Part shown: positions 9,486 to 40,241 of the stretch, piece by piece
Position numbering within the stretch: the first letter of the stretch is position 1
Layout: each line of letters begins with the position of its first letter
Assembly (NCBI RefSeq): GCF_900115095.1
Contig: NZ_FOVH01000007.1
Coordinates: 124,001-188,000, forward strand
From: Actinomadura madurae
GTDB lineage: Bacteria; Actinomycetota; Actinomycetes; Streptosporangiales; Streptosporangiaceae
Direction: 5' to 3'
DNA: 64,000 nt
Notes under the pieces: generated by a model
What the model was told of the DNA's origin: nothing
Seen by the model: the letters and a program-made list of their open reading frames with translations, nothing else
Databases searched by the model: none
Translations under genes and position numbers: made by a program

Positions 9486-9504
9486 TGTTTTTGTTCCCTC
9501 ATCG

Positions 9505-15071: not shown

Positions 15072-15142
15072 GAGCAGAAAGCTATATCGTTGAACGCGCT
15101 TTCGGCAAGGCATCGGTGGAAGTTCGTTCGGCTCGAGACAGC

Positions 15143-15148: not shown

Positions 15149-15155
15149 CCAAGCC

Positions 15156-21552: not shown

Positions 21553-21672
21553 AGGCAGATCACCGTGCCCATGTCGACAGCCGACCATGCCGAGGGCCTG
21601 GGCGCCGACGATGTCGGGCTCGGCCTGAGATCACGATGGGTCGGACAGCTTGAGCCGGGGGCAACTGCCCCA

Positions 21673-23236: not shown

Positions 23237-24724
23237 TCAGGCGTCGTCGCCGAGCGCCATCCAGATCGTCTTGGTCTCGGTGTACTGCTCAAGCGCCTCG
23301 GTGCCGTTGTCGTGACCGCCGAAGCCCGACATCTTGTAGCCGCCGAACGGGGTGGCGAGGCTGCCCTCGCTGTACTCGTTGACCGCGATGACGCCCGCAC
23401 GGACCCGCCGCGACACCTTGACGGCACGGTCGAGGTCATGGGTGTACAAGGTCGCGTGCAAGCCATACGACGAATCGTTGGCCAAGGCGACCGCTTCGTC
23501 ATCCGTCTCGAATGGAGTCACCCCGACGACCGGCCCGAACACTTCCTCGCGCCAGATTCTCTGGCCGGGTCGGACGTTGTCGATGACGGTCGGTTGGACG
23601 AACCAGCCGCCAGTCTCCTCGTAGAGGCGCTTTCCACCGAACGCGACCTGCGCACCGGAGGCCGCCGCCTCGTCGATGTGGCCGAGAATCCTGTCCAGGG
23701 CCGACGCTTCGATGATCGGTCCGATCTGGGACTCCGAATCGCGCGGCGAACCCACTTTCCACTGTGAAGCGATAGCCGAAAGTGTCTCGACGAAGTCCTT
23801 GTGGAGTGACTTGTGCACCAGGATCCGTGATCCGCAGGTGCAGTTCTGGCCGGCATTCCAGAAGCCGGCGATCGATGTTTGGAGCGCGACCGCCTCCAGG
23901 TTGCGGCCGGCGTCACTCAGCACGATCCCCGCGCTCTTGCCGCCGCACTCGAGCACGACCCTCTTCATGTTGCTTTCCGAGGAGTAGCGCAGGAACGCCT
24001 GCCCCACCGCGGTGGAACCGGTGAAGGTGATCGCGTCGACGTCCATGTGCAGGCCGAGCGCCCGGCCCGCGATCTCGCCACGTCCGGGCAGCACATTGAT
24101 GACACCGTCGGGAATGCCGGCCTCGGCGGCAAGCTGAGCGAGGTAGATGGTGCTCAGCGACGCCTGCTCCGGCGGCTTGACGACCACGGAGTTCCCCGCG
24201 GCCAGGGCGGGGCCGAGCTTCTGGCTCGCGATGGCGATCGGAAAATTCCACGGAAGCACCGCGCCGACGACACCGACCGGCTCCTTCACGACCAGTGCGA
24301 GGTTCTTCTCACTGGTGGGTGCCACCTTGCCGTAGACCTTGTCGATCATCTCGGCGTAGTGACGGATAGTGCTGACGACGTGGGGGACGTCGATGGTCTC
24401 GAGATCGTGGACCGGCTTGCCCGCATCGATCGACTCGATGTCGATGAACTGCTGAGACCTCGACTCGATGAGGTCGGCGAAACCGAGCATCGCGGCCTTG
24501 CGCTTCTCGGGCGCCAGGCGCGACCACCGACCGTCGTCGAATGCCTTCCGTGCGGCTGCGACGGCAGCGTCCACATCGGCCTCGCCGCAGTCGGCGATCT
24601 GGGCGAAGATCTCGCCCGTCGCCGGTGCGAACGAGTCCAGGGTTCCGCGCGAGGCCGGGTCGACGAACGCTCCGTCGATGAAAGCCTGGGTCGGTACGGA
24701 CTTCACAAATTCGAGCGCATCCAT
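23237..24724 (-). CDS. Aldehyde dehydrogenase (NAD(P)-dependent)
   Basis: 495 aa. NAD-binding PWNFPIAIAS, FTGSTAVGQ, general base Glu259 (VVLECGGKS) and nucleophile Cys295 (NAGQNCTCGSR). Heads the minus-strand operon ALDH-SDR-SDR-kinase-ACAD. The ATG at 24724 opens the family N-terminus; reading frame upstream of it holds no conserved sequence and contains the operator at 24766-24777. Broad aldehyde range is typical. It is one of two island ALDHs that could oxidise 2-oxoglutarate semialdehyde. Confidence 0.9.
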   Translation of the reverse strand: MDALEFVKSVPTQAFIDGAFVDPASRGTLDSFAPATGEIFAQIADCGEADVDAAVAAARKAFDDGRWSRLAPEKRKAAMLGFADLIESRSQQFIDIESIDAGKPVHDLETIDVPHVVSTIRHYAEMIDKVYGKVAPTSEKNLALVVKEPVGVVGAVLPWNFPIAIASQKLGPALAAGNSVVVKPPEQASLSTIYLAQLAAEAGIPDGVINVLPGRGEIAGRALGLHMDVDAITFTGSTAVGQAFLRYSSESNMKRVVLECGGKSAGIVLSDAGRNLEAVALQTSIAGFWNAGQNCTCGSRILVHKSLHKDFVETLSAIASQWKVGSPRDSESQIGPIIEASALDRILGHIDEAAASGAQVAFGGKRLYEETGGWFVQPTVIDNVRPGQRIWREEVFGPVVGVTPFETDDEAVALANDSSYGLHATLYTHDLDRAVKVSRRVRAGVIAVNEYSEGSLATPFGGYKMSGFGGHDNGTEALEQYTETKTIWMALGDDA

Positions 24725-24765: not shown

Positions 24766-24777
24766 ATTGTCGACAAT
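24766..24777. promoter_or_regulatory. GntR-type operator before the ALDH-SDR-ACAD operon
   Basis: ATTGTCGACAAT; with its flanks, GATTGTCGACAATC is a perfect 14-bp palindrome. It lies 42 bases upstream of the ALDH start. Confidence 0.75.
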
Positions 24778-24858: not shown

Positions 24859-25908
24859 TCATTCGACACGCTTGAGCTTCGGGACTTCCTTCCAGTAGTC
24901 CGCGAGCGCGAAGCCCTCCGGGAATGGATCGGTCGGGTCGAGCCCGATCTGCTTGACCGCCGTGATCCACGACTGGCCTGCCACCCGGGGGCGCACGGCG
25001 GGCAGATCACCGACGGTGGTGATCTCGTCGATCGACGCGGTGAAGGTGGTGTCCAGGACGCTCTCGTGGATGAAGGTCTGACCGACCTCGATGTCACCGC
25101 GGGCGTGGAGAAGCGCGAGGCGCGCGGAGGTGCCGGTGCCGCACGGGCACCGATCCAGCCCGCCCGGGCTCACCACGACGGTGTTGCGTGATCGCAGGAC
25201 GCCGCCTTCCTCACGAAGCGGTCCCGCGATCAAGGTCTGGGTGATTCCGTTGAAGCGCGGTTCGAGCGGGTGCACGGCCTCCAGTTGCTCGTGGGCGGCC
25301 TTCTTGACCCGCTGCCCGACCTCCACGAGCCGTGCGGCCTCATCGCGGGTGATCTTGAAGCCCAGAGTCTCGGCGTCGACGATCGCGTAGGTCATGCCAC
25401 CCCACGCGACGTCGACGGGAACGGTGCCGATGCCGGGGACGTCAATGGGCGCCCGTTGGTGGTAGACGAAGGCCGGCTGGTTGAGGAACGACGTGCTGAG
25501 CACCTTGCCGTCCCGGCATTCGGCACGAATCCGGATCGGCCCGGCCGGCGCCTCCAGGGTCAACTCGGTGACCGGCTCGACCATCGGAACCATGCCGGTC
25601 TCGAGCAGGACCGTGGCGACGCACATCGTGTTGCTGCCGGACATCGCGACGTACTCGGTCGGCAACGCGATGATGTAGCCGAAGTCCGCATCAGGGTGGT
25701 TCGATGGCACCACGAAGTTCACGGACACGCCCCAGGTCAGTGGCTCCAGGACGAGCATCTTGCGGATGCGGTCAAGATTGTTCTGGAAGTAGAGCATCTT
25801 GTCGCGGACGGTCTCGCCCGGCACCGGCGGCAGCCCACCGACGACGACGTCGGCTCGCATGCCCTCATTGTGGGCGCTGACCAGGTGGATCATCTGTCTC
25901 ATTCGCAC
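24859..25908 (-). CDS. Proline racemase superfamily enzyme 1 (hydroxyproline 2-epimerase-like, Ser/Cys pair)
   Basis: 349 aa. The two active-site positions are Ser90 (AMSGSNT, where proline racemase has Cys) and Cys256 (DRCPCGTGTS). Ser/Cys members are among those reported as 4-hydroxyproline 2-epimerases in the superfamily, while Cys/Thr marks trans-3-hydroxyproline dehydratases; this is from family knowledge, not tested here. Its ATG overlaps the end of a close paralogue by 10 bases. Last gene of a minus-strand run FAD dehydrogenase-racemase-racemase. It would convert an L-imino acid to the D-form used by the neighbouring dehydrogenase. Confidence 0.87.
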   Translation of the reverse strand: MRMRQMIHLVSAHNEGMRADVVVGGLPPVPGETVRDKMLYFQNNLDRIRKMLVLEPLTWGVSVNFVVPSNHPDADFGYIIALPTEYVAMSGSNTMCVATVLLETGMVPMVEPVTELTLEAPAGPIRIRAECRDGKVLSTSFLNQPAFVYHQRAPIDVPGIGTVPVDVAWGGMTYAIVDAETLGFKITRDEAARLVEVGQRVKKAAHEQLEAVHPLEPRFNGITQTLIAGPLREEGGVLRSRNTVVVSPGGLDRCPCGTGTSARLALLHARGDIEVGQTFIHESVLDTTFTASIDEITTVGDLPAVRPRVAGQSWITAVKQIGLDPTDPFPEGFALADYWKEVPKLKRVE

Positions 25909-27002
25909 GGGCCGTCCTCCTTTCCCATGGTCGTGGGCACCGGTGGCGGGCTCGGGGGGATGAGGCTCAGGCTGTCGATGTCGTCGACGAACTTGTCGCC
26001 GAGCATGTAGCCCTCAGGGAAGGGGTCCGTGGGATCGACACCCACCTGCATCGTCGAGTTGATCCATGCCTGACCGCCCACCCGGGGCGACACGGCCGGG
26101 TACGCACCGACCGTCGTGGTGCTCTCGACCTCGGCGGTGAATCTGGTGCCCAGGATCGACTCGTGCACGAACGGCTGCCCGATCTCGAGTTCGCCTTGTG
26201 CGTGCAGGAGGGCCAGCCGTGCCGAGGTGCCGGTCCCGCACGGACTCCGGTCGACCACGCCTGGCGATATCACGACCGCGTTGCGCGAAGTCAGTACACT
26301 GTCGACCATCCGCAGCGGGCCGGCGAACTCGGTCTGCGTGATGCCGTGGTGCCGCGGTTCCAGCGGGTGGACCACCGGGAGTTGCTCGGCGGCGGCAGCC
26401 TTGATCCGCTGCCCGAGCGCGACCAGATCGCGCGCCTCATCCTCGGTGAGCCGGAAGCCGAGAGCTTCGGCGTCGACGATGGCGTAAGTCATTCCTCCCC
26501 AGGCGACATCGACCGGGATCGTCCCGGACCCGGCAACCTCGACCGGTGCCTGGTGGTGGTAGACGAACGAGGGCTGGTTCAGGAAGGAGACGTTCGTGAC
26601 CTTGCCGTCCCTGCATTCGCAGCGCAGGCGGATGAGGCCGGCGGGTGCTTCCAAGGTCAGCTCGGTGACCGGCTCGACCATCGGAACCATCCCCGTCTCG
26701 AGCAGCACGGTGGCAACGCACAGCGTGTTGCTCCCCGACATCGCGACGTACTCGATCGGCTCGGCGATGATGTAGCCGTACGCCGCCTCCGGGTCGCCGG
26801 CCGGCACGACGAAATTGAGACCCGACACGGTGCGCGGCTCGTACATCAGCGTGCGGCGGATGTGATCGAGGTTCCGCTGGAAGTACTGCATCTTCTCGAA
26901 GACGGTCTCCCCCGGCACCGAAGGCACGCCGCCGACCACCACGTCACCGACCATGCCCGCCGCATGGCATCCGACGACGTTGTAAACCTTGTCCCACCGC
27001 AT
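25899..27002 (-). CDS. Proline racemase superfamily enzyme 2 (paralogue, Ser/Cys pair)
   Basis: 367 aa, clearly a tandem duplicate of the following gene (long identical stretches such as CVATVLLETGMVPMVEPV). Active-site residues are Ser89 and Cys255. It differs in the substrate-lid region (CHAAGMVGD versus AHNEGMRAD) and in a Pro-rich C-terminal tail of about 20 residues. Starts 6 bases after the FAD dehydrogenase stop. The two copies may have split stereoisomers or form a heterodimer; both are inference. Confidence 0.87.
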   Translation of the reverse strand: MRWDKVYNVVGCHAAGMVGDVVVGGVPSVPGETVFEKMQYFQRNLDHIRRTLMYEPRTVSGLNFVVPAGDPEAAYGYIIAEPIEYVAMSGSNTLCVATVLLETGMVPMVEPVTELTLEAPAGLIRLRCECRDGKVTNVSFLNQPSFVYHHQAPVEVAGSGTIPVDVAWGGMTYAIVDAEALGFRLTEDEARDLVALGQRIKAAAAEQLPVVHPLEPRHHGITQTEFAGPLRMVDSVLTSRNAVVISPGVVDRSPCGTGTSARLALLHAQGELEIGQPFVHESILGTRFTAEVESTTTVGAYPAVSPRVGGQAWINSTMQVGVDPTDPFPEGYMLGDKFVDDIDSLSLIPPSPPPVPTTMGKEDGPCE

Positions 27003-27008
27003 GTACGC

Positions 27009-28202
27009 CTACTCCTCGTCCTCGTGGGGTTCCGACTCCGCGCCCGGGACATTCCCGCGGCCGGCGCGCGCCGAGGCCAGTTCGGGCCGATGCGGCGACA
27101 GCTTCTCGGCGGTGACGCCGTACCCGGCAACATCGTCCGGCAGTCCGCGGCCGGCGAGCAGTGCCGCACCGACGCGGGACAGCGCGGGCGCCGTCTGGAT
27201 GCCGTATCCCCCCTGCCCGGCGTACCAAAAGAAGCCGTCGACGGATGAGTCGAACCCGACGACCGGGTGCCGGTCGGCGACGAAGCTGCGAAGTCCACCC
27301 CACTCCGATCGCACACTCCGCGCGCCGATGACCGTCGCCTCACCGAGCGCGTCCAGTGCCCTCGCGATCTCCAGCGGGTCGGCCTTGGCGTCGGCCGGCT
27401 CGTGCGGAGTCTCGTCGACCGGCGAGCAGATGAATCCGTCGCCCTCGGGCTTGAAGTAGAACCTGCTCTCGACTTCGTTGGTCAGGGGGATCCGTGAGAC
27501 TTCGCAGCCCTCCGGCGCACGGACCCCGAACATGCTGCGGCGCAGCGGAGTGATCCCCACCGGGGCCACCCGGAAGATCCGCGCGACCTCGTCGGCCCAC
27601 GCGCCCGCGGCGTTGACCACCGTCTCGGCTTCCACCACGCTGCCGTCGCGCAAGACCACCCTCCAGACGTTCCCGGCGCGCGTGGCGGCCACGACCGGTG
27701 CCGCGGGATGCACCTTTCCGGCGCGGCGGCGCAGGCCGCGGAGGTAGGCGGAGTGAATCGTGTGGACGTCCATCTCCATCGCCCGAGGCTCGTAGGCACC
27801 GATGCGGTAGTACCCCGAGCGCAGCACCGGGTTGAGTTCGAGCACCTCGGTGGCGTCCACGATCGCGAGGTCCGGAACCTGCGCACTCACCTCTGCGTGC
27901 CAGGCACGGAGTTTCTCTTCGTCTCCCGGCGTCGCCACGATCAGGGACGGCAGCGGTTTCATCGCCGGCGAGTCGAACCAGTCTTCTCCGTCGGAGAGGT
28001 GCTCCCGGCTCGCGAGGGTGAGACCCCTGACGAGGGCCGATCCCAGCACCTCGACGAACACCGCCGCCGACCGGCCGGTGGTGTGGTAGGCCAGCGTGGA
28101 CTCCATGTCGAGCAGACCGACGCTGTGGTCCGCCGCGATCTCGTAGCCGATGGACGCTCCGGCCATGCCGCCGCCGATGACGAGGACGTCATAACCGCTC
28201 AT
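27009..28202 (-). CDS. FAD-dependent D-amino/imino-acid dehydrogenase (DadA/DauA-like)
   Basis: 397-aa DAO-fold flavoprotein. VIGGGMAGASIGYEIA at residues 8-23 binds FAD; AYHTTGRSAAVF is characteristic of DauA-type D-arginine/D-amino-acid dehydrogenases; C-terminal WYAGQGGYGIQTAPALS holds the isoalloxazine. ATG at 28202. In hydroxyproline breakdown a D-amino-acid dehydrogenase of this fold oxidises cis-4-hydroxy-D-proline to the pyrroline carboxylate, which fits the two racemase genes directly downstream. A general D-amino-acid role is the alternative. Confidence 0.87.
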   Translation of the reverse strand: MSGYDVLVIGGGMAGASIGYEIAADHSVGLLDMESTLAYHTTGRSAAVFVEVLGSALVRGLTLASREHLSDGEDWFDSPAMKPLPSLIVATPGDEEKLRAWHAEVSAQVPDLAIVDATEVLELNPVLRSGYYRIGAYEPRAMEMDVHTIHSAYLRGLRRRAGKVHPAAPVVAATRAGNVWRVVLRDGSVVEAETVVNAAGAWADEVARIFRVAPVGITPLRRSMFGVRAPEGCEVSRIPLTNEVESRFYFKPEGDGFICSPVDETPHEPADAKADPLEIARALDALGEATVIGARSVRSEWGGLRSFVADRHPVVGFDSSVDGFFWYAGQGGYGIQTAPALSRVGAALLAGRGLPDDVAGYGVTAEKLSPHRPELASARAGRGNVPGAESEPHEDEE

Positions 28203-28207
28203 CGCGC

Positions 28208-31200
28208 TCACCCTCCCGCCGGCGACGCGATGCGGCCGGACGAGTCCAGCCCGGCGAGCTTGCGCGCGACCTCGGCGCGGTAGAGCTCGACATTCCGCAT
28301 CTTGACTTCCTCGTAGCCGCGCACCATGTCGGGCAGCGCCGCAACCTCCGCAACGGCGTCGACGTTGTTTTCGTCGAGTCGTTCCAGCAGCTGCTCGACC
28401 AGGGCCGTGTACTCGCCGACGAGCGCCCGCTCGGTGCGACGGACCTTCGCGTAGCCGAACACGTCGAAGCGGGTACCGCGGACCCGTCTCATTCGGTAGA
28501 GCGCCCGGAAAACAATGCGGAACCACGGCCCCAGGCTGATCTTCTTCTTCATGCCCAGGGCCCGCAGGACCGGCGGATGCAGCCGGTAGCGGTAGCTCGC
28601 CCCGGGGCCGAACTGCTCCTCGAGCTCGGTGACGAGCCCGGGACGGACGCTGAGCCGGGCGACCTCGTACTCGTCCTTGTACGCCATCAGCTTGAACAGG
28701 TGCCGGGCGACTTCGACCGTCAGGGTGGTGGCCTGAGCGCCCGCCACGCGCTCCTCCGCGGCCCGGACTCGTTCGACGACCGAGGCATACCGGTCCGCGT
28801 ACGCCGCGTTGTGGTACGCGGTGAGCTCAGCGATCCGAAGGCGGACGATATCCTCGAGACCGGCCTCGGGAGCCTCGGCGGTATCGTTCGCGTCGACGGT
28901 TCCGCCGTTCCGCAGGGCGGCGCAGAACGAGTCGGGGTCCGCGATCAGCTGCCGGCCACGCCGAAACGCCTGCGTGTTGCGCTCGACGGCGACACCGTTG
29001 AGCGCGATCGTCGCCTCGATCTGGTCGGCGGGCACGGGTAGAGCGCCGAGCTGAAGCGCGACGCCGACGAGGAACATGTTCGCGTACTGATCGTCACCGA
29101 ACAGGTCGAGGGTCGCCTCACGCGCATCGACGAAGCGGCCGGCGTCCTTGCGCGTCCGGTCGCCGATACGGCCGAGCGTGTCCCGCGCCGCGGGGAAGTG
29201 CACGGTGGTGTCGGCGACCATCGCCCCCGTGGGCACCTCGGCGGTGGACACGACCGCGACTGTCCGCTCCGGTGAGGCGGTGCCGAGGTTGTCCTCCGAG
29301 GCGGCGACCAGAACGTCGCAGCCCAGGTACAGGTCGCATTCACCGGCGCCGACCTTCGCCGCCAGCTCGATGGGCTCGCGGGTGACCTTGAGATCGGAGA
29401 CGACCGCGCCGCCCTTCTGGGACAGCCCGGTCTGGTCCAGAGCACGGACCTCAAACCCGGAGCGAGCCGCGGCGGTGGCCACCACCTGCGCCATCGTCAC
29501 CACGCCCGTGCCGCCCACCCCGGTGATGCGCACGCTGAACCGGTTGGGATCAACCACCTGCGCCGGCTCCGGCAACGCCGCCGCATCGATCGGTGGGGCG
29601 TCTCGGCGGCCTCGCGCGACCTTCTCCCCCGGGACCACGGTGAGGAAGGACGGACAGTCCCCGTCGAGGCAGGAGAAGTCCTTGTTGCAGGACGGCTGAT
29701 GGATCTGTGTCTTCCGGCCGAACTCGGTCTCTACGGGCTGGACCGACAGGCAGTTCGACTTCTGGCCGCAGTCGCCGCAGCCCTCGCAAACGCGTCCGTT
29801 GATGAACGCGCGCTGCGCAGGCTCCACGGCCTTGCCGCGCTTGCGCTTGCGCCTCAGCTCGGCAGCGCATTCCTGATCGTGGATGAGCACCGTGACACCC
29901 GGGGTGTCCGCCAGTTCCCGCTGCACCTCCACCAGATCGCCTCGGTCGTGGACCGCCACCCCGCGCGGCAGCCTGGCCCTGCGGTACCGCCTCACGTCGT
30001 CCGTGGTGATCACCACCTTGGCGACCCCTTCGGCCAAGAGAGCCTGGCTCACCTTGGCCACGCTCATCCCGCCCACGGCGTCCTGTCCGCCGGTCATCGC
30101 GACGGCGGAGTTGTAGAGCAGCTTGTAGGTGATGTTGACGCCGGATGCGACCGCGGCCCGCACCGCCAGGCTCCCGGAATGGTGGAATGTGCCATCGCCA
30201 ATGTTCTGGAACATATGTGGCGTCTCCACGAACGGCGAGAGACCGATCCAGCTCGCTCCCTCGCCGCCCATCTGGGTCAGCCCCATGACGTCACCGACCT
30301 GGCCGGAGGCCACCAGGCCGACCATGCCGTGACAACCGATGCCTGCCGATACGAGTGAGCCGTCCGGCACCTGAGTGGACCTGTTGTGCGGGCAACCAGA
30401 GCAGAAGTACGGCGTGCGTGGGAGCAGTGCGAGCGGCCGGCCGAGCAGGCTCCTGCCCGGCGTCGCCACCGGCTCCGGAAGATCGTAATGCGATGCGAGC
30501 CGCCGACGCAGTCCGGTGGCGATCCGGTCGGCGCCGAGGTCGTTGTCCGCGCGGAAGAGCTCGGATCCGTTGATGTCGGTCTTGCCGACGACGACCGGGG
30601 CTCCGTTGCGCCCGTAGAGGATGTTCCGGATGCCGGCCTCAATGAAGGGACGCTTCTCCTCGACGACAATGATCTCGTCGAGGCCCTCGCTGAACGCGGC
30701 GATCTCCTCGGGGTCCAGCGGCCAGACCATGCCGAGACGCAGGATGCGGAGTCCGGCGGCCTCCGCCTCCGCCGGTGCGAGACCCAGCGAGTCGAGGGCT
30801 TGGCGTAGGTCGAGGTAGGTGCTTCCCGCGGCCACGATCCCGACCCTGGCGGCGGATGCGTCGTACACCCGGTTGAGGCGGTTGGCACGGGCGTAGCGCC
30901 CCGCCAACTCGAGGCGCTGGTGCACCATGCTCCGCTCCAACGCCGCGAGGTAGGGTTGGCCGAGCATCAAGCTCGGCTCGTGAACGTAGGGTTTCCCGTC
31001 GACGATGTTGCCGGGAACGACGACCCGCGGCGTGTCCAGACCGACGGCGGCGGTGGAGTGACCGTCCGCCACGTTCGTGGCGATCTTGAGGCTTACCCAC
31101 AGCCCGCTGAATCGCGACATCGCCATTCCGTGGATGCCGAAGTCGAGCACGTCCTGCGCGTCCGACGGCACCAGGACCGGCATGCCGAGCTCGGCGAGAG

Positions 31201-31693
31201 CCATCTCGGAAGCACTGGGCACGGTGGAGGACTTGGCCACCGAGTCGTCGCCGACGAGCGCCAACGCTCCCCCTTCGGGGCTGGTACCCGCGAGGTTGGC
31301 GTGCCTCAATGCGTCAGCGGCCCGGTCGAGTCCGGGCGCCTTCCCGAACCAGTAGCCTGCGACGCCGTCCACGGTTCGACCCGCGACGTTGCCCACCATC
31401 TGGCTGCCGACGACCGCGGTCGCTGCCAGTTCCTCGTTGAGGCCGGGGGTGAAGACGATTCCCAGCTCGTCGAGCCGACTTCCCCGACGCTGCAACTCGA
31501 GGTCGTATCCGGCGAGCGGCGACCCCTCGTAGCCGGAGATGAACGCCGAAGTATTGCGGCCGTTCCTCTCGTCGCGCCGGCGCTGGTCCATCGGCAGACG
31601 AACGAGGGCTTGGAGCCCGGAGAGGTAGATCTGACCGTCCTCGACCGCGTACTTGTCCTCGAGCCGCTGCGCGACGGCGGTCTTGTCACTCAT
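28208..31693 (-). CDS. Fused indolepyruvate:ferredoxin oxidoreductase-family 2-oxoacid oxidoreductase
   Basis: 1161-aa single-chain 2-oxoacid:acceptor oxidoreductase. It has an N-terminal pyruvate-ferredoxin-like region (SGYEGSPLAGYDLEL), a TPP domain (CSGCPHN; GIGCHGMVGLV; IGDGTFHHSG), an Fe-S segment (CEGCGDCGQKSNC), the gamma domain (ITGVGGTGVVTMAQV; GLSQKGGAVVSDL) and a helical C-terminal extension. Length is normal for the fused form. It oxidatively decarboxylates aryl or branched 2-oxoacids to acyl-CoA. ATG at 31693; 5 bases separate its stop from the FAD gene. It would take 2-oxoacids produced by deamination into the acyl-CoA branch of the island. Confidence 0.9.
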   Translation of the reverse strand: MSDKTAVAQRLEDKYAVEDGQIYLSGLQALVRLPMDQRRRDERNGRNTSAFISGYEGSPLAGYDLELQRRGSRLDELGIVFTPGLNEELAATAVVGSQMVGNVAGRTVDGVAGYWFGKAPGLDRAADALRHANLAGTSPEGGALALVGDDSVAKSSTVPSASEMALAELGMPVLVPSDAQDVLDFGIHGMAMSRFSGLWVSLKIATNVADGHSTAAVGLDTPRVVVPGNIVDGKPYVHEPSLMLGQPYLAALERSMVHQRLELAGRYARANRLNRVYDASAARVGIVAAGSTYLDLRQALDSLGLAPAEAEAAGLRILRLGMVWPLDPEEIAAFSEGLDEIIVVEEKRPFIEAGIRNILYGRNGAPVVVGKTDINGSELFRADNDLGADRIATGLRRRLASHYDLPEPVATPGRSLLGRPLALLPRTPYFCSGCPHNRSTQVPDGSLVSAGIGCHGMVGLVASGQVGDVMGLTQMGGEGASWIGLSPFVETPHMFQNIGDGTFHHSGSLAVRAAVASGVNITYKLLYNSAVAMTGGQDAVGGMSVAKVSQALLAEGVAKVVITTDDVRRYRRARLPRGVAVHDRGDLVEVQRELADTPGVTVLIHDQECAAELRRKRKRGKAVEPAQRAFINGRVCEGCGDCGQKSNCLSVQPVETEFGRKTQIHQPSCNKDFSCLDGDCPSFLTVVPGEKVARGRRDAPPIDAAALPEPAQVVDPNRFSVRITGVGGTGVVTMAQVVATAAARSGFEVRALDQTGLSQKGGAVVSDLKVTREPIELAAKVGAGECDLYLGCDVLVAASEDNLGTASPERTVAVVSTAEVPTGAMVADTTVHFPAARDTLGRIGDRTRKDAGRFVDAREATLDLFGDDQYANMFLVGVALQLGALPVPADQIEATIALNGVAVERNTQAFRRGRQLIADPDSFCAALRNGGTVDANDTAEAPEAGLEDIVRLRIAELTAYHNAAYADRYASVVERVRAAEERVAGAQATTLTVEVARHLFKLMAYKDEYEVARLSVRPGLVTELEEQFGPGASYRYRLHPPVLRALGMKKKISLGPWFRIVFRALYRMRRVRGTRFDVFGYAKVRRTERALVGEYTALVEQLLERLDENNVDAVAEVAALPDMVRGYEEVKMRNVELYRAEVARKLAGLDSSGRIASPAGG

Positions 31694-31938
31694 CAATGGC
31701 ACCTGTTCACGTGGAGAGCCGGTGGAGGCTCGACCGAGCCTGTCCGGGCAGTTGCAGTTCGGAACTCGCCGGGAAGACGTCCCCGGCGCCTCATGTCGGC
31801 CACGCAGGCCCGTCGTGGTGTGCGGCCGTGGCGAGCTGGAAGGTCTGTCCCAGCACGCCACGGCGCGGGTCCCCGGTCCGGGGAGGTGTCACCTGGAACG
31901 GAGAGCATCTGGTGCGGCTCGTCGATACGTGCGGAGGA

Positions 31939-32823
31939 TCAGGCGGAGGCGATCCGCTTGAGGGCCGCCTCAAGCGGGCTCCGGGCCTCCGCGGGCAGCG
32001 CGCCGAGGGGCTCGCGCGGGTCGCCGAACGACTTCCCGAGGATGTCGAGCCCGGCCTTGACACCCGCGTTGTACGGGACGGTGGTGAGGAATCGCATGAC
32101 CGGGTACGCGAGATTCCAGGCCTTGCGGGCGTCCGCGAGGTTATTGGCCTGAATCGCGTCCCAGACCGCGACCAACTCGGGAGCGATCAAGTTGGCCGCC
32201 CCGTTGATGGCGCCCGCACCACCGACCGCGAGCGAGGTGAAGTAGAGGGTGTCCAGTCCGACGAAGGTCTTGAAGGCGTCCCCGTACTCGTGGATCAGGA
32301 TCCCGGCCTGGTGCATGTCGCAACTGGTGTCCTTCACGTACTTGATCTGCTCGACCTCGCGAGCGAGCGAGGCCATGGTGTCCGGATCGATATTGACGCC
32401 GGTCGCCAGCGGGGCGTTGTAGACCATGATCGGAACCGACACCGCCCCGGCGACCTTGCGGTAGAAGCCGAGCACGTCCTCCATCGGCAGCGCCTCGTAG
32501 AACGGCGCGACCACCATCAGGGCGTCGGCGCCCTTCTCCTCGGCGTGCCGGCCCAGCGCAATCGCGTCCCTAGCGGTGAGCGCCCCGACGTGGGGCACGA
32601 CCGGGACACGGCCGGCGGCCTGGTCGATGACGATCTCGGTCACCAGGCGGCGCTCGTCCACCGTCAGGGTCGTGAACTCGCCGGTCGATCCGCACGGGAT
32701 CAGCGCGTGGACACCGCCCTGGATCTGGCTGTCCACGTGGCTGCGCAGGGCGGCCTCGTCGAGGCTTGCGCCCCCGGCCGTGAACGGCGTCGCCAGGGCG
32801 GACATGAGTCCGTGAAGCTCCAT
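31939..32823 (-). CDS. DHDPS/NAL-family aldolase or deaminase (pyrroline-4-hydroxy-2-carboxylate deaminase candidate)
   Basis: 294-aa class I Schiff-base TIM barrel. GSTGEF at 45-50, Tyr135 (MVYNAP) and Schiff-base Lys164 (KYVKDTS) are present. In hydroxyproline catabolism a member of this family converts pyrroline-4-hydroxy-2-carboxylate to 2-oxoglutarate semialdehyde; others are 2-keto-3-deoxy sugar-acid aldolases. The neighbours favour the first. The operator lies only 20 bases upstream of the start codon. The 245 bases after its stop, before the 2-oxoacid oxidoreductase, hold no recognised gene. Confidence 0.87.
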   Translation of the reverse strand: MELHGLMSALATPFTAGGASLDEAALRSHVDSQIQGGVHALIPCGSTGEFTTLTVDERRLVTEIVIDQAAGRVPVVPHVGALTARDAIALGRHAEEKGADALMVVAPFYEALPMEDVLGFYRKVAGAVSVPIMVYNAPLATGVNIDPDTMASLAREVEQIKYVKDTSCDMHQAGILIHEYGDAFKTFVGLDTLYFTSLAVGGAGAINGAANLIAPELVAVWDAIQANNLADARKAWNLAYPVMRFLTTVPYNAGVKAGLDILGKSFGDPREPLGALPAEARSPLEAALKRIASA

Positions 32824-32842
32824 GACTCTCCTTGAATGATTT

Positions 32843-32854
32843 ATTGTTTACAAT
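32843..32854. promoter_or_regulatory. GntR-type operator before the DHDPS-family gene
   Basis: ATTGTTTACAAT, identical to the copies at 15060 and 38047, 20 bases upstream of the start. Confidence 0.75.
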
Positions 32855-32885
32855 CGCTGCCCGAACGCGCCCCTGGTTCAGGACG

Positions 32886-33263
32886 TCACCCGACGACCAC
32901 GTCCGCCTCGATGCGCGCGCCGATCGGGAGCGCGGCGACCGCGATCGCCGTGCGCGCGGGGTAAGGCTTGGTGAAGTACTGGGCGTACACGTCGTTGACC
33001 GCGGCGAACTCGGACATGTCGGTCAGGTACAACGTCACCTTCAGGACGTCTGCCTCGCTCTTGCCGGCCCCGGCCAGAACCGCATCGAGATTGGCCAGGA
33101 CCTGGACGAGCTGGTCGGCAGCCGTCTCCCCCGCCAGGTCCGGCGTGCCCGGGCGGTTGCCCACGATGCCGCTGAGCCACAGCCGCGCCGCCCCGGAGAC
33201 CGCGGTCGAGTACGGAAGCACGGGCGCGGGAAGTCGCTCGGTGACGAGGGGGGTACGGGCCAT
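32886..33263 (-). CDS. RidA/YjgF-family enamine/imine deaminase
   Basis: 125 aa. Hydrolyses reactive 2-imino acids released by PLP enzymes and flavin oxidases. The key Arg104 (PARTAIAV) and Glu119 (RIEADVVV) of active RidA proteins are present. It starts 3 bases after the stop of the broken threonine-dehydratase-like gene (TAGATCATG), a natural pair since that enzyme makes an imine. It may also serve the D-amino-acid dehydrogenase. Confidence 0.88.
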   Translation of the reverse strand: MARTPLVTERLPAPVLPYSTAVSGAARLWLSGIVGNRPGTPDLAGETAADQLVQVLANLDAVLAGAGKSEADVLKVTLYLTDMSEFAAVNDVYAQYFTKPYPARTAIAVAALPIGARIEADVVVG

Positions 33264-33266
33264 GAT

Positions 33267-34082
33267 CTACCTGGCTTTCGTGTCGTGATCGGGTTGTGCG
33301 GGCTTGTCGGCAGCCCGGCTCTGCCACTCCGCCGCCGCCGCTCATCACATGAGCCAGGAGCCGTGGATCGAAGTTGCCACCGGTGGCCACCGCGACCTCG
33401 GTGCCTCCGGGCCACCGATGCGCGAGAAGCGCGGCCAATGAGGCAGCCGCCGAGGGCTCGACGGCCACCCGCAAGGCGCGATACGCCAACGCCATCGCCT
33501 CCAGGATTGCGTCGTCGTCGACCAGCACGATGTCGTCGACGTGGTCGCGGACGATCGGGTACGGCAGCTCACCGGGCCATGGGCTGACCAGCCCGTCGGC
33601 GATCGAGTGCCCGGCCCGCTCCAGGCCGACCGGCCGGCCGGCGTCGACGGATCGTCGCATCGCCGCGCTGCCGGCGGGCTCGACCCCGACGACGCGGACG
33701 CGGGGAGCCAGCGTCTTGACCACGAGCGCCATCGAGGCCGGCAGCCCCCCGCCTCCGGTCGGAACGACGACGTCCCCGCCTCCGGCGCGTCCTCGAGGAT
33801 CTCGATCGGGAGTGAACCGTGGCCGGCTATGACATCCGCGTGGTCGAACGGGTGCGGCTTGGCCAGTCCGTGCTTGTCGGCCGGCTCATCGCAAGTCCCG
33901 AAGACCTGCTCCGGGGTGGTGCCCGCCCGCACGACGGTCGCGCCGAGTGCCGCGGCGGGCCGGCCCATCGCCTCGTCCAGGCGGGGGTCGTCGATCAGCG
34001 GCGTACGACGCTCCCGGCCGTCCTGCTCACGACGCGCGACCAGGACGTCCTGGAGATCCGGTCGGCGGCTTGGCGATGACAC
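33267..34082 (-). pseudogene. Threonine dehydratase-like PLP enzyme, internally deleted and frameshifted
   Basis: Fold-type II PLP enzyme remnant. From a GTG at 34082 it reads SSPSRRPDLQDVLVARR and RRTPLIDDPRLDEAMGR, then jumps to ALGATVVRAGTTPEQVF: the segment that should carry the PLP lysine (SFKxRGA) is deleted. Near 33775 the frame shifts (…EDAPEAG then DVVVPTGGGGLPAS in another frame), and a further shift near the 3' end is needed to reach the TAG at 33267-33269; without it the frame runs on across ridA. Not functional as read. Confidence 0.8.
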
Positions 34083-34143
34083 GTGCACGCGGTCTTCCCA
34101 ACATTCGATCTTGCGGGACCTGTTGGACATTGTTCGATTGATG

Positions 34144-34155
34144 ATTGTTAACAAT
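34144..34155. promoter_or_regulatory. GntR-type operator before the dehydratase pseudogene/ridA unit
   Basis: ATTGTTAACAAT, a perfect 12-bp palindrome, 62 bases upstream of the pseudogene start and 37 bases from the 3' end of the oxidoreductase small-subunit gene. Confidence 0.75.
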
Positions 34156-34191
34156 GCATGGCAGATTTGCCTGGTATGCAACCGGGATTTC

Positions 34192-34677
34192 TCAGGCGGG
34201 TGCGGGACGCCCGACCGGGCCGCGCTCGAGCACCGGGTCCAGGAGACCGCCGGCCAGTTCCTCGGTCCCCGCGTCGAATGGAAAGCCCACCGCACGCTGC
34301 CCGGGATAGCCGATGCGCTCGCGGGTCGCCGGATTGATCAGCCAGGCGCCGACGATCACCGCCGACAGGGCCTGGAAGTCATCTCGACGTTCCTCGTCCA
34401 TGGCGCGCAGCTGATCCCACAGGACCCCGGGATCGGAGGTGTCGATCTCCGCCAGGGCCGCCGTGACGGTCTCGAACGCGTCTCGGCGCGCCGCGAGCGC
34501 CCGGGCCAGGTAGCCGTCGTACTCGGGATCCTCTGTCGCGGCCGGATGGACCCCGGCGCGTGGCACGAGCACGTCCGCGATCGCACGGGCCGCGGCGAGT
34601 TCGGCATCGGTGAGCGCGCGAGGCGTGATTCTCGCCGGCGCGGACAGGCGGAGAACGTTGCCACCCGGGGACGTCAT
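34192..34677 (-). CDS. Gluconate 2-dehydrogenase subunit 3-family protein
   Basis: 161 aa. Small partner of a GMC oxidoreductase; ALTDAELAAARAIADVLVP and the GYPGQRAVGFPF segment are family features. No Tat signal is visible at its N-terminus, unlike membrane-bound gluconate dehydrogenase small subunits, so the complex may be cytoplasmic. The start overlaps the GMC stop (ATGA). No cytochrome c subunit is present; the electron acceptor is unknown. Confidence 0.8.
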   Translation of the reverse strand: MTSPGGNVLRLSAPARITPRALTDAELAAARAIADVLVPRAGVHPAATEDPEYDGYLARALAARRDAFETVTAALAEIDTSDPGVLWDQLRAMDEERRDDFQALSAVIVGAWLINPATRERIGYPGQRAVGFPFDAGTEELAGGLLDPVLERGPVGRPAPA

Positions 34678-36305
34678 GCGGGCACCTCCTTTTTCTTGGC
34701 GTACGCCGCGACGCCCTCGGCGACGCGCAGGGCCAGTGCGTGGATGGTTCCCGTCGGATTCACCGATCCCGTGGTCACGAAGATGCTCCCGTCTGCGATG
34801 AACAGGTTGTCGACGTCGTGCGCCTGGCCGAAGGAGTTGACCACGGACGTCGCCGGGTCATGGCCCATCCGAGCGGTACCGAGCAGGTGGCCGGGCTGGT
34901 CGGGGAGCAGAGGGAAGGAGATGACCTCGGTGGCACCTGAGGCTTCGTGCAGCTCGCGCATGCGGTCCACCGTGAACGCGAGGATCCGCCGCGTGTTCTC
35001 GCTGACGCGGTAGCTCACCTTCGGCGCCGGAATGCCGTCGCCGTCGACCAGGTGATCGGAGAGCGTCACCTGGTTGCGCTCGTCGGGAAGATCCTCGGTG
35101 TTCGCAGCCCAGAAGATGCCCCGTCCGTGGGTCGCCGCCGCCTCGTGGATCGGCTCGCCCCAGAGGTCGTCGAACGACCGCCCCCACCGGCGGACCTCGA
35201 TGGCCGTGAGCGGGCCGGGTGCGGCGATCGCGTGCAGTTTGGCGCCGCGGACGAAGTCGTGCTCCGGCCGGGTGTCGTAGAACTCGAGCGAGTGGATGGC
35301 CTGGCCGGTCGGACCGAGCCAGCTCTCAAGATCCTCCTCGTAGCTGCCGTACACCGCGGAGTTCGGGTGCAGCTGCAGGTTCTTGCCCACCAGGCCCGAG
35401 GAGTTGGCCAGGCCGTCCGGATGGGCCGGCGAGTCGGACAGCAGCAGCAGCCGGGGCGTCCCGATGCCGTTGCCGCACATCACCACGGCTTTGCCCGGTT
35501 GGAAGTGCTCCCTCCCGGCACGGTCGATCCAGGTGACTCCGGTGGCGCGCCCACCCGGTCCGGTCTCGATCCGGCGGGCGCGCGCACCCGTGATGAGCGC
35601 CGCGCCGGACCGTAGCGCGTGCGGCCACCATGCCACGTCCGCGGAGGCCTTGGCCGACTGTGGGCAGCCCCACTCGCAGACTCCGTAGCGCGCGCACTTG
35701 CTGAGGTTCCTGAAGTCGGCGCTCGGGATCGCGTTGATGCCCGGCCACCAATGCCAGCCCAGCTTGTTCGCGCCTTGGGCGGCGCGGAGCCCGACCTTCC
35801 CGAACGGCAGCGGAGGCAGTGGGTAATCATCCTCGTGATCAGGGTAGGCGGGGTCGCCGCTCACACCGGAGACCCCGGTCAACGCCTCCGCCTTCGCGTA
35901 GTAGGGCGCCAGGTCCGAGTAGGTGATCGGCCAGTCGTCCGCGACGCCGTCGAGTGTGCGCACGTGGAAATCGCACGGCAGCAGCCGGTGCCAGTGCGCG
36001 CCGTAGTAGATCGACGATCCGCCCACGGCGTTGAACATGACCGGCGCGAGGTCGGAGTCCGATACGTCCACTGGGTAGTCGGCGGGCAGCCGGCGGTGGT
36101 TCGGGTCATGCGCCCACTGCTGCTGCACCAGCAGCTCCCATTCCGGATGGTTGCCGGCGAAATCGGTGGGATTCATCCAGTCGCCCTGTTCGAGGCACAC
36201 GACCTTCAAGCCCAGCGGAGCGAGCGTTCCGCTGATGACGGCACCGGACGGGCCCGCTCCGACGACCACGACGTCGGCCTGGTCCAAAGGGAGGGGTGGC
36301 GTCAT
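34674..36305 (-). CDS. GMC-family FAD oxidoreductase (large subunit)
   Basis: 543 aa. DVVVVGAGPSGAVISGTLA at the N-terminus binds FAD; NAVGGSSIYYGAHWHR is the GMC signature region; a Cys-rich patch CARYGVCEWGCPQSAKAS follows; the C-terminal HLLGTARMGHDPATSVVN and GSVNPTGTIHALALR hold the catalytic His/Asn area. This is the two-subunit gluconate/choline-dehydrogenase-like type. It oxidises an alcohol group, perhaps that of a hydroxy-imino acid or a betaine precursor (inference from context). Operator 21 bases upstream of the start. Confidence 0.87.
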   Translation of the reverse strand: MTPPLPLDQADVVVVGAGPSGAVISGTLAPLGLKVVCLEQGDWMNPTDFAGNHPEWELLVQQQWAHDPNHRRLPADYPVDVSDSDLAPVMFNAVGGSSIYYGAHWHRLLPCDFHVRTLDGVADDWPITYSDLAPYYAKAEALTGVSGVSGDPAYPDHEDDYPLPPLPFGKVGLRAAQGANKLGWHWWPGINAIPSADFRNLSKCARYGVCEWGCPQSAKASADVAWWPHALRSGAALITGARARRIETGPGGRATGVTWIDRAGREHFQPGKAVVMCGNGIGTPRLLLLSDSPAHPDGLANSSGLVGKNLQLHPNSAVYGSYEEDLESWLGPTGQAIHSLEFYDTRPEHDFVRGAKLHAIAAPGPLTAIEVRRWGRSFDDLWGEPIHEAAATHGRGIFWAANTEDLPDERNQVTLSDHLVDGDGIPAPKVSYRVSENTRRILAFTVDRMRELHEASGATEVISFPLLPDQPGHLLGTARMGHDPATSVVNSFGQAHDVDNLFIADGSIFVTTGSVNPTGTIHALALRVAEGVAAYAKKKEVPA

Positions 36306-36325
36306 CCAATCAGCCCTTCCTGGCT

Positions 36326-36337
36326 TTTGTAAACAAT
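36326..36337. promoter_or_regulatory. GntR-type operator before the GMC oxidoreductase operon
   Basis: TTTGTAAACAAT; on the other strand ATTGTTTACAAA, one end base off the 12-bp consensus. Confidence 0.7.
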
Positions 36338-36418
36338 TTGCAGTCTAGATTTCGTGTGGACCGACCACAAGCAGGTGTGCCGCCGTGCCATCGGTCCCGA
36401 CCTGGCCCTTGCTTCCGA

Positions 36419-37876
36419 TCAATGCAAGTTGACGGTGATCTGCTTCGTGCGGCTGAACTCGTCGAGGCCCGCCAGGCCGCCTTCCTTTCCATAGCCCGAG
36501 CCCCGAAAGCCGCCGACGGGCATCTCGGGCCCGTGCGCCATGTGCGTGTTGATCCAGACGCTCCCGAACTCGATCGCATTGGCGACGCGCATGGCCCGGC
36601 CGACATCACGTGTCCAGACAGATCCGGCAAGGCCCTGCTCGACGTCGTTGGCCAACGCGATCGCCTGCGCCTCGTCGGCAAAGCTCTGCACGGTCGCGAC
36701 CGGCCCGAAGATCTCGGTCTGCACGATCTCGTCCGACTGCTCGAGACCGGTGACCAAGGTGGGCGGGTAGAAGTATCCCGCTCCGTCGGCCGGCCGCCCT
36801 CCCAAGACGACCTTCGCCCGTCCGGGAACCCCGTCGACGAGAGCCTGGACACGGTCGCGCTGTGCCGCCGAGATGAGCGGCCCCAGATTCGTGGCCGGAT
36901 CGAGCGGGTCGCCCATCACCGTGAGGCTCTCCATGGCTCCGGCCACAGCCTCGACGAACCGGTCGTGGAGGCCCTCCTGGACGATCACGCGCGTGGCGGC
37001 CATGCATTCCTGGCCGGCGTTGAAGAGCGCCGTGCCGGCGACGTGATACGCCGTCCTCTCCAGATCGACATCGTCGAAGACGATCACCGGGGCATTGCCG
37101 CCGAGCTCCAGCACCAAACGCTTGGGGCCCGCTGCCGCCACCGCGGCGATCACGCGACCGGCCCGGGTCGATCCGGTGAACGACACGACGCCCACCTCGG
37201 GGTGGGCCACCAGCGCCTGTCCCGTGGTGTCGCCACGCCCGTGGACGAGATTGAGCACGCCGGGCGGCAGGATTTCGCCCGCGAGCTCGACGAAGCGGAG
37301 TGTGGACAGCGGAGTGTCCTCGGCCGGTTTGACGACCACCGTGTTTCCGACCGCGAGCGCCGGAGCGATCTTCCAGATCGCCTGCCAGAGTGGATAGTTC
37401 CACGGGGTGATCGCCGCCGCGACGCCGATGGGCTCGCGCCGGAGGAATGACGTGTGTCCCTCGTGGTACTCGCCGGCCGGCTGCGCACTGCCGATTCCCG
37501 GTAGGCCGGCGAAAAGCCGCAGCGCGTCCAGCAGACCCGGCAGCTCGATCCCACGGCTGGCCGACCAGGGTTTACCGGCGTCGACGACCTCCAGCTTGGC
37601 CAGCTCGTCGAGGTGCGCCTCCATCGCGTCCGCGATCCGGCGGAGCAGGTTCGCACGATCACGCGGGGTGCGGGCCGCCCAGGAGGGGAAGGCCGCGGAT
37701 GCCGCGCGAACGGCCTTGTCGACGTCGACAGCCGTCGACTCGCGGAACCAGGCGAGCGTCGCCCCGTCGGCGGGGTTGAGCACCTCGACCGTGCCCTGCC
37801 CCGACGCCTCGACCGTGGAGCCGCCGACGTAGTTGCGGATCTCTCCGCCGGTGCTCGGTGCGGGCTGCCCATTCAT
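36419..37876 (-). CDS. Aldehyde dehydrogenase (betaine/aminobutyraldehyde DH-like)
   Basis: 485 aa. PWNYPLWQAIWK for NAD, FTGSTRAGR, Glu257 (LVLELGGNAPV) and Cys291 (NAGQECMAATR). The sequence around the nucleophile and PWNYP resembles betaine-aldehyde and 4-aminobutyraldehyde dehydrogenases. ATG at 37876 has GGAGG six bases upstream; a frame start further up would run through the operator. A stand-alone unit controlled by its own site. Candidate for 2-oxoglutarate semialdehyde or a betaine aldehyde. Confidence 0.9.
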   Translation of the reverse strand: MNGQPAPSTGGEIRNYVGGSTVEASGQGTVEVLNPADGATLAWFRESTAVDVDKAVRAASAAFPSWAARTPRDRANLLRRIADAMEAHLDELAKLEVVDAGKPWSASRGIELPGLLDALRLFAGLPGIGSAQPAGEYHEGHTSFLRREPIGVAAAITPWNYPLWQAIWKIAPALAVGNTVVVKPAEDTPLSTLRFVELAGEILPPGVLNLVHGRGDTTGQALVAHPEVGVVSFTGSTRAGRVIAAVAAAGPKRLVLELGGNAPVIVFDDVDLERTAYHVAGTALFNAGQECMAATRVIVQEGLHDRFVEAVAGAMESLTVMGDPLDPATNLGPLISAAQRDRVQALVDGVPGRAKVVLGGRPADGAGYFYPPTLVTGLEQSDEIVQTEIFGPVATVQSFADEAQAIALANDVEQGLAGSVWTRDVGRAMRVANAIEFGSVWINTHMAHGPEMPVGGFRGSGYGKEGGLAGLDEFSRTKQITVNLH

Positions 37877-37889: not shown

Positions 37890-37901
37890 ATTGTTAACAA
37901 T
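37890..37901. promoter_or_regulatory. GntR-type operator before the betaine-aldehyde DH-like gene
   Basis: ATTGTTAACAAT, a perfect palindrome, 14 bases upstream of the start and abutting the ribosome site. Confidence 0.75.
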
Positions 37902-38046: not shown

Positions 38047-38058
38047 ATTGTTTACAAT
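38047..38058. promoter_or_regulatory. GntR-type operator before the DUF1254 pseudogene
   Basis: ATTGTTTACAAT, 103 bases before the pseudogene ATG. About 145 bases separate it from the site at 37890, so the two lie in one divergent intergenic region. Confidence 0.7.
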
Positions 38059-38160: not shown

Positions 38161-38740
38161 ATGACCATCACCACGGACCTCGGCGGCATCTCCGGGAGCT
38201 CGATCGACGACATCGTGACCAGAGCAGGTTCCACGGTTTCAGCAGCGATAAAGGCTTACCTGTAGGGCTATCCGCTGGTGCTTGGGCCTACGTCAGCAGC
38301 CGGACCACCGGGCACGAACCCGGCCGGTTCACGATCACCTGCCCGTCCAGACGCCTGGACGGCGATGAGTCCACACTCGATTCCCCGACCGATACCGTGT
38401 GGCTGATCGGGCGCACCCTCGTCGACGGCCCGGACGATCTCGCCGCGGTCTCCGAACCGGTCTCGCGGTACCGATCGACACCGTCCGCCGACGAACGCGC
38501 ACGGTCGGCCGTCATCGAGGGGCCGGTCGAGTCACCGCACACGATAGGTGCCGCCGGGATCGGCTTCTTCGACGAGTTGTGCCGGGCGCTCGAAACGGTT
38601 CGTGCCGTAATCACCCAGGTCAAGGCTATAGCGCCAGCCGCGGCAGCGGTCCCGTTGGACCGCCAGGAGGTCGTCTCCGAGTTGCGGGGCGGCAGCCATG
38701 GCCGACCGGATGACGGGGTCGGTCACCTCAGCGGACGGGC
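38161..38740 (+). pseudogene. DUF1254-family protein, nonsense mutation and internal deletion
   Basis: Begins MTITTDLGGISGSSIDD and reaches AIKAYL, then TAG (38263-38265), then GYPLVLG: the family signature AYxYGYPLV with Tyr changed to stop. Right after it the sequence jumps to YVSSRTTGHEPGRFTI and DTVWLIGRTLVDGPDDLAAV, which lie well downstream in intact DUF1254 proteins, so a few hundred bases are missing. GFFDELCRAL follows; the rest fades by about 38740. The function of DUF1254 proteins is not settled. A regulon operator still stands upstream. Confidence 0.75.
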
Positions 38741-40051: not shown

Positions 40052-40070
40052 GATCCGCTTCCGACCGGGC

Positions 40071-40088
40071 TGGGCGATATCTGGGCGA
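40071..40088. repeat. 18-bp subterminal repeat, right copy
   Basis: TGGGCGATATCTGGGCGA, identical and in the same orientation as 5923-5940. Lies in the leader of the DUF2637 gene, 102 bases inside attR. Confidence 0.55.
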
Positions 40089-40190
40089 CGGCACCTTTCC
40101 TCAACGTCGCCGGACATCGCTCAACTGCGCCCTATCGAGGCCCCTGACCTGCGCATTCGCGCAGCGCTGCAGGTCACGCATGAGCGCGGA

Positions 40191-40241
40191 CTACCTTGAC
40201 ACGGTAGAGGCCACTGGTTCAATCCCAGTATCGCCCACCAC
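40191..40241 (+). repeat. attR: 51-bp att direct repeat
   Basis: Second copy of the tRNA-Val 3' half, identical to 5812-5862. The bases before it do not complete a tRNA, so this copy is not a gene. It is followed directly by a hairpin that fits the original tRNA terminator. Confidence 0.95.

Follow-up and report, generated by a model that had tools for sequence, protein, structure and literature searches.

A 34.4-kb island in the 10.25-Mb genome of Actinomadura madurae appears to encode a jointly regulated pathway for the breakdown of an amino or imino acid, probably a hydroxylated one. The island lies in a stretch of 64,000 nucleotides (assembly GCF_900115095.1, contig NZ_FOVH01000007.1, positions 124,001 to 188,000), which we call the window and from whose first letter coordinates are counted; genes for the island's regulator, importer, enzymes and GMC partner that are given without a sign are on the minus strand. 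We regard the island as horizontally acquired, integrated at a tRNA-Val gene, catabolic and controlled through one operator family, and we put the probability of this explanation as a whole, including the substrate class and the flow of intermediates set out below, at roughly 0.4. An earlier note on this DNA had recognised in it the four enzyme types of trans-4-hydroxyproline breakdown; the observation largely holds and the interpretation is partly supported, in that the island is a real regulon with chemistry of the right general kind, but it is not the route for trans-4-hydroxyproline.

A shared operator on a tRNA-integrated island

Comparison of the intergenic regions yielded one recurring palindrome, ATTGTNNACAAT. 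If one mismatch is allowed, the window has seven copies (six exact sites and one with a single mismatch) against 0.10 expected, a count reached in none of 100 shuffles, and six of the 12 exact sites in the whole genome fall within the window. The sites lie in the divergent promoter between an importer and an enolase-superfamily gene (ATTGTTTACAAT, 15060-15071) and upstream of an aldehyde dehydrogenase gene, ALDH b (ATTGTCGACAAT, 24766-24777), a DHDPS-superfamily gene (ATTGTTTACAAT, 32843-32854), a unit formed by a pseudogene and RidA (ATTGTTAACAAT, 34144-34155) and a GMC oxidoreductase gene (TTTGTAAACAAT, 36326-36337, the site with the mismatch), with two more upstream of a second aldehyde dehydrogenase gene, ALDH a (ATTGTTAACAAT, 37890-37901, and ATTGTTTACAAT, 38047-38058). 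The earlier suggestion that these genes share operators is thus borne out, and the genes for two racemase-family proteins, a flavoenzyme and a 2-oxoacid oxidoreductase lie on the same strand downstream of the operator-bearing DHDPS gene. A GntR/FCD regulator (8799-9515; Pfam GntR and FCD), not listed previously, is a candidate local repressor and may be the protein that binds ATTGTNNACAAT. The palindrome differs from the HypR motif described in Streptomyces coelicolor (PMC6608401), and the one HypR-type match in the window, with one mismatch, is not above chance (1.36 expected). Elsewhere in the genome the remaining copies of the operator have neighbours with no evident tie to the island. Two further ATTGTNNACAAT sites stand 3 kb apart on another contig (C18:568998 and C18:572040), one close to where a class III aminotransferase-like gene starts, the other a little ahead of a dehydrogenase-like gene.

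All the genes discussed here lie within the island, whose left end (attL, 5811-5861, +) is the 3' 51 nt of the tRNA-Val gene (5787-5861) and whose right end (attR, 40191-40241, +) is a second copy of those 51 bp, identical at 51 of 51 positions and in direct orientation. The earlier placing of the genes on one element therefore holds, since this perfect repeat bounds them. The GC content of the enclosed region is about 0.63-0.70, compared with 0.70-0.75 across much of the flanks, so that attachment-site repeats surround a region of different composition, as in a tRNA-integrated island. A scan of island open reading frames (ORFs), some of the short ones included, turned up no intact integrase, and the nearest candidate was a sub-threshold resolvase match. 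No empty insertion site was shown in relatives, whose flanking DNA is too diverged. A DUF2637 gene (38723-40117) adjoins the right end.

Tandem racemases in the hydroxyproline branch

Among the four enzyme types, only the tandem racemases fall in the hydroxyproline branch of their superfamily. The two genes (Pro_racemase; protein 1, 24859-25908; protein 2, 25899-27002) encode proteins 66% identical to each other, each with a Ser/Cys dyad (motifs MSGSN ... DR[S/C]PCGTG), and in the tree they are mutual closest relatives (support 100/99). They join Rhizobium etli PC0000647, a Paracoccus pPAN2 protein encoded beside an Ldh-type gene, and Caballeronia and Mesorhizobium proteins in a clade of their own (97/92), near or sister to the Ser/Thr trans-3-hydroxyproline dehydratase (t3HypD) clade in a tree that did not include Pseudomonas aeruginosa PA1255 (LhpL), a trans-3-hydroxyproline dehydratase/epimerase (PMC5144071). 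Because of this placement, and because one proven 4-hydroxyproline epimerase (4HypE; PMC4113996) relies on a Ser/Cys pair for two-base epimerisation, the two proteins, as far as sequence can tell, probably epimerise a proline-like amino acid. The dyad is compatible with an epimerase, yet approximately unbiased (AU) tests rejected placing the racemases in either tested 4HypE clade (Ser/Cys or Cys/Cys; p 0.001 and 1.5e-5). The dyad is also not the Ser/Thr or Cys/Thr pair of t3HypD, and neither of the families that hold pyrroline-2-carboxylate (Pyr2C) reductases, OCD and Ldh2, was found among the scanned island ORFs. A sugar-acid role is unsupported, as the tree puts both proteins in the proline/hydroxyproline branch. 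Racemase-family proteins encoded next to or near DHDPS genes elsewhere, namely a tandem pair in Agrobacterium deltaense (L053, 16444-18530) and one in Pseudonocardia (L049, 15331-16332), carry a Cys/Gly instead of a Cys/Cys pair and possibly have a different activity.

The canonical trans-4-hydroxyproline pathway is elsewhere in the genome

Pfam and NCBIfam confirmed the four enzyme families that had been taken for the known steps to 2-oxoglutarate; family trees, AU tests and an operon elsewhere in the genome spoke against the steps themselves. On another contig (C50) the same genome carries an LhpB-LhpF-LhpE-HypD-LhpA operon with 54%, 60%, 46%, 54% and 71% identity, respectively, to the Streptomyces microflavus plasmid cluster, and DHDPS-racemase pairs like the one in this operon are present in many genomes of the genus. 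The window's own proteins are more distant from the S. microflavus cluster (DHDPS 28%, flavoenzyme 27%, racemases 40-42%) and stand at 28% and 27% identity to the genome's own HypD and LhpB. The DHDPS-superfamily Schiff-base enzyme (31939-32823) retains the Schiff-base Lys and catalytic Tyr in motifs otherwise unlike those of HypD, and in a 44-row tree its clade (97/96) contains two proteins from Pseudonocardia, one from Rhodococcus and one from another actinobacterium; three of these four are encoded next to a flavin oxidoreductase, and in two of the three cases an aldehyde dehydrogenase is nearby. Constraining it to the actinobacterial HypD clade was rejected by the AU test at p 2e-61, and constraining it to the R. 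etli/Paracoccus clade at p 2e-4, so that the DHDPS part of the earlier reading fell outside the HypD clades tested, whereas the racemases stayed in the proline/hydroxyproline branch.

A canonical trans-4-hydroxyproline pathway in the window would draw on the same four superfamilies and on the Ser/Cys dyad of the proven 4HypE noted above. Against it stand the orthologous operon, the exclusion of the DHDPS protein from the HypD clades and of the racemases from the 4HypE clades, a flavoenzyme of DauA type, the lack of a HypR site above chance, and two aldehyde dehydrogenases that score 319 and 336 bits with the GucD model for 2-oxoglutarate semialdehyde dehydrogenase, far under its cut-off of 770, and higher with other aldehyde dehydrogenase profiles. 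The LhpE and LhpF subunits were not found in the window by tblastn. On the trees, the AU tests and the separate operon we reject this pathway, which we regard as very improbable here.

An LhpJ-like enolase and the case for 3-hydroxyproline

The enolase-superfamily gene (MLE subgroup by Pfam; 15057-16286, +, with a tentative start) encodes a protein that matches 4mgg best among solved structures (245 bits, against 177-178 bits for 2pmq/4h2h); we take 4mgg to be the Labrenzia enzyme and 2pmq/4h2h to be HpbD. Its best curated family is the NCBIfam cis-3-hydroxy-L-Pro dehydratase, at 284 bits against a cut-off of 500, and it is about 37% identical to annotated LhpJ-type members. By sequence it is thus nearer the LhpJ type than HpbD, to which it had been likened before, and it is related to imino-acid enzymes all the same. 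The betaine substrate raised along with HpbD was also dropped, as the enolase is nearer LhpJ and no betaine demethylase was found among the scanned island ORFs. Homology to the enolase begins near 15156; the sole ATG upstream of it overlaps the operator (15057-15071), and GAGGAG stands just before an ATC codon at the start of the homology.

These matches bear on the main rival explanation, a divergent 3-hydroxyproline (or 3,4-dihydroxyproline) island with LhpL-like racemases, an LhpJ-like enolase and the DHDPS and aldehyde dehydrogenase finishing the route. The nearest relatives of the racemases are proteins of hydroxyproline clusters, including the Paracoccus one whose Ldh-type neighbour is likely a Pyr2C reductase, and their clade is sister to t3HypD; LhpL, acting on trans-3-hydroxyproline, and LhpJ, acting on cis-3-hydroxyproline, are both bifunctional epimerase/dehydratases (PMC5144071); and plasmids of A. 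deltaense and Pantoea carry, together with an MLE enolase and a racemase, an aldehyde dehydrogenase and a DHDPS from the wider clade to which the window's protein belongs. However, the dyad is Ser/Cys rather than Ser/Thr, no OCD- or Ldh2-type Pyr2C reductase is present among the scanned ORFs, the enolase stays well under its family cut-off, and the 2-oxoacid oxidoreductase and acyl-CoA genes described below are left unexplained. We consider a 3-hydroxyproline island rather unlikely.

A DauA-type flavoenzyme with a changed pocket

The product of the FAD-dependent D-amino-acid dehydrogenase gene (DAO; 27009-28202) belongs to the DauA family: a search of solved structures gave D-arginine dehydrogenase (3nyc) at 245 bits and 38% identity, and the next match at 49 bits. 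In DauA, R222 and R305 bind the carboxylate, and E87 and E246 the guanidinium group (PMC11193025). The island enzyme retains R222, R305 and Y249 (DauA numbering) and carries H48V, T50V, E87S and E246S, together with Y53L at the gate. Since the carboxylate-binding residues are kept and the guanidinium-binding residues replaced, it probably dehydrogenates a D-amino acid other than arginine. It is not a D-hydroxyproline dehydrogenase of LhpBEF or HypO type (27% to LhpB), and it aligns with the R. etli D-amino-acid dehydrogenase at 26% over only 45%.

RidA (32886-33263) scores 116.7 bits with TIGR00004 (cut-off 106.25). Members of the Rid family are deaminases for a variety of imines; iminoarginine is acted on by Rid2 and Rid3, not by RidA proteins (PMC5619798). 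The island thus shares with the DauA and Rid imine deaminases of P. aeruginosa the logic of a D-amino-acid dehydrogenase paired with an imine deaminase, but differs in the side-chain residues of the pocket and in having a RidA rather than a Rid2 or Rid3. A pathway for D-arginine or another basic D-amino acid, served by DauA and by PuuC/KauB-like and aminobutyraldehyde-type dehydrogenases, would agree with DauA as the closest solved relative and with the aminoaldehyde-type profiles that score best for both aldehyde dehydrogenases, but the replacement of E87, E246, Y53, H48 and T50 and a RidA of a subfamily inactive on iminoarginine (PMC5619798) make it highly improbable. D-arginine itself was rejected as the substrate on the loss of the binding residues. 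Upstream of RidA and under its operator lies a decayed pyridoxal-phosphate (PLP) Ser/Thr-dehydratase pseudogene (EutB-like; 33330-34110), missing from the earlier note, in which PALP is read in two frames with a frameshift and an internal deletion; its loss may have changed the function of the island.

A fused oxidoreductase and a split ACAD11

The fused indolepyruvate-type 2-oxoacid:ferredoxin oxidoreductase (28208-31693) scores 1484 bits with the curated NCBIfam model PRK13030, against a cut-off of 816. In one actinobacterium of another family a homologue (60.6%) has a DauA-type enzyme (48.7%) in its vicinity and no racemase, a pairing that supports a step from D-amino acid through 2-oxo acid to acyl-CoA. 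Farther left, an acyl-CoA dehydrogenase (19301-20527) gives 478 bits to ACAD11 (8v3u) and 157 bits to its best match not of ACAD11 type, and the adjacent APH-fold kinase (20527-21588) gives 183-187 bits to the ACAD11 kinase domain, so that both genes are closest to ACAD11-type proteins. Two short-chain dehydrogenase/reductases (SDRs), identified by family scan, follow (SDR 2, 21673-22455; SDR 1, 22452-23213). ACAD11 phosphorylates 4-hydroxyacyl-CoA and then eliminates phosphate (PMC11342911). The scanned island ORFs showed no CoA ligase, which makes the oxidoreductase the probable source of the CoA thioester, and the two ACAD11 halves suggest that its product is a 4-hydroxy- or 4-oxoacyl-CoA and hence that the 2-oxo acid on which it acts is oxygenated at C5. 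The earlier remark that the GMC, 2-oxoacid oxidoreductase and acyl-CoA genes lie outside the known hydroxyproline route is upheld, and the genes are confirmed.

The bacterial levulinate (lva) system has a 4-hydroxyacyl-CoA kinase and dehydrogenase. ACAD10/ACAD11 and lva share with the island an adjacent kinase and dehydrogenase with SDRs; the island differs in that its pair is split in two genes, stands in an amino-acid regulon and has no CoA ligase among the scanned ORFs.

GMC oxidoreductase, aldehyde dehydrogenases and importer

The GMC oxidoreductase (34674-36305) matches the FAD-glucose/fructose dehydrogenase-like family, and its gene end is overlapped by that of a 161-residue partner protein (34192-34677) with no Pfam family, which the earlier note had not included and whose predicted fold is unusable (predicted local distance difference test score 48). 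In Rhizobium plasmids a homologue of the partner lies beside a GMC gene, and small ORFs occupy similar positions in S. meliloti and Agrobacterium. In rhizobial loci the GMC gene and small partner stand beside genes for electron-transfer flavoprotein (ETF), ETF-QO, aspartate dehydrogenase and an aldehyde dehydrogenase (L112, L113), or beside aminotransferase and hydantoinase genes (L114, L115); these loci could encode a GMC complex with an unnamed subunit. ALDH a (36419-37876, starting at the first ATG) is aminobutyraldehyde-dehydrogenase-like, at 589 bits with PRK13473 (cut-off 615), and ALDH b (23237-24724) has a PuuC-like best profile and 55% identity to an A. deltaense aldehyde dehydrogenase encoded beside racemase, MLE and DHDPS genes.

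The Opp-type importer (9588-15015; Pfam) consists of a fused two-ATPase protein (9588-11477), two permeases (11369-13302) and a family-5 solute-binding protein (13351-15015). A phosphotriesterase/lactonase-like gene (16344-17307, +) has a single frameshift near 16480, either decay or a sequencing error.

Comparison with known clusters

The actinobacterial L-hydroxyproline cluster (S. coelicolor SCO6289-6294 and the S. microflavus plasmid) shares with the island a GntR-type regulator, an Opp-type ABC importer, tandem racemase-family genes, a DHDPS, an FAD enzyme and an aldehyde dehydrogenase, but none of the window's enzymes is orthologous to its own, the operator is different, and the island adds the oxidoreductase, GMC, RidA, ACAD11-type pair and enolase. 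Plasmid hydroxyproline clusters of R. etli, Paracoccus and Caballeronia hold the closest relatives of the island racemases (55-59%), whereas their DHDPS proteins, at 27-31% to the island's, fall in other clades. Plasmid loci of A. deltaense (pEL101-243) and Pantoea sp. At-9b (pPAT9B04) resemble the island in having an MLE enolase, a racemase-family gene and an aldehyde dehydrogenase, with a DHDPS in the window's wider clade (99/97), but have other racemase types and lack the oxidoreductase, DauA and ACAD11 pair. The window's DHDPS clade thus repeatedly accompanies racemase-family genes outside known hydroxyproline clusters.

Proposed route

The island ends, the operators, the gene content and the family placement of the enzymes are observed; the flow described next is a proposal. 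In it, the Opp-type importer would bring in the compound, whose alpha-carbon would be inverted by the two racemase-family enzymes with Ser/Cys dyads, perhaps together with the enolase; the DauA-type flavoenzyme would oxidise the D-form and RidA would hydrolyse the imine. The fused oxidoreductase would then convert the 2-oxo acid to an acyl-CoA one carbon shorter, and the SDRs with the split ACAD11-type kinase and dehydrogenase would carry the 4-oxo- or 4-hydroxyacyl-CoA into beta-oxidation. The GMC protein and the aldehyde dehydrogenases could turn an alcohol into an acid, and the DHDPS-type enzyme may cleave or deaminate a 2-oxo or imino acid as a side branch. As a guess, a 2-amino-5-hydroxy acid such as 5-hydroxypipecolate or 5-hydroxylysine would fit this chemistry. 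The more specific proposal of an undescribed route, in which racemase-superfamily epimerisation and DauA-type oxidation feed fused-oxidoreductase decarboxylation and ACAD11-type chemistry for a 5-hydroxypipecolate-like imino acid or 5-hydroxylysine, is one that we consider rather unlikely.

Several observations weigh against the breakdown as drawn. No operator stands directly before the oxidoreductase or GntR gene in the window. A kinase/dehydrogenase pair of ACAD11 type is also found in a different setting (a separate acyl-CoA cluster on a Tsukamurella plasmid), and the same genome has a 64% paralogue of the acyl-CoA dehydrogenase; the island's pair may therefore serve something else. The two damaged genes, for the PLP dehydratase and the lactonase, may reflect decay of the island; the enolase, SDR3 and an NAD-epimerase have no place in the scheme; and the link from a 2-amino-5-hydroxy acid to a 4-hydroxyacyl-CoA is one that we infer. 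No relative with the whole gene set was seen in 59 genomes (mostly of the same genus), in a 395-genome sample of the class (eight racemase matches, all at 45-48% except the genome itself), or in plasmids (DNA and protein), viral contigs and one genome-contig scan, which leaves the argument for joint action to the operators and gene order. Some of these points fit an element that gathers two or more unrelated modules (racemase/D-amino-acid, GMC/ALDH and 4-hydroxyacyl-CoA) under one regulator and is partly decaying, as would the rhizobial GMC genes and small partners found with ETF, aminotransferase and hydantoinase genes and without racemases. However, one rare operator is tightly shared and the operons are co-directional, and we hold such an assembly to be unlikely.

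The island is a new combination of known enzyme kinds, and it illustrates that gene-family names alone can point to the wrong pathway. It also offers a testable regulon, in which a single compound library would serve to assay every enzyme. An arrangement leading from such racemases to 4-hydroxyacyl-CoA was not found in the literature searched; if the proposal is true, a racemase family associated with proline and hydroxyproline would be tied to 4-hydroxyacyl-CoA metabolism through a ferredoxin-dependent step.

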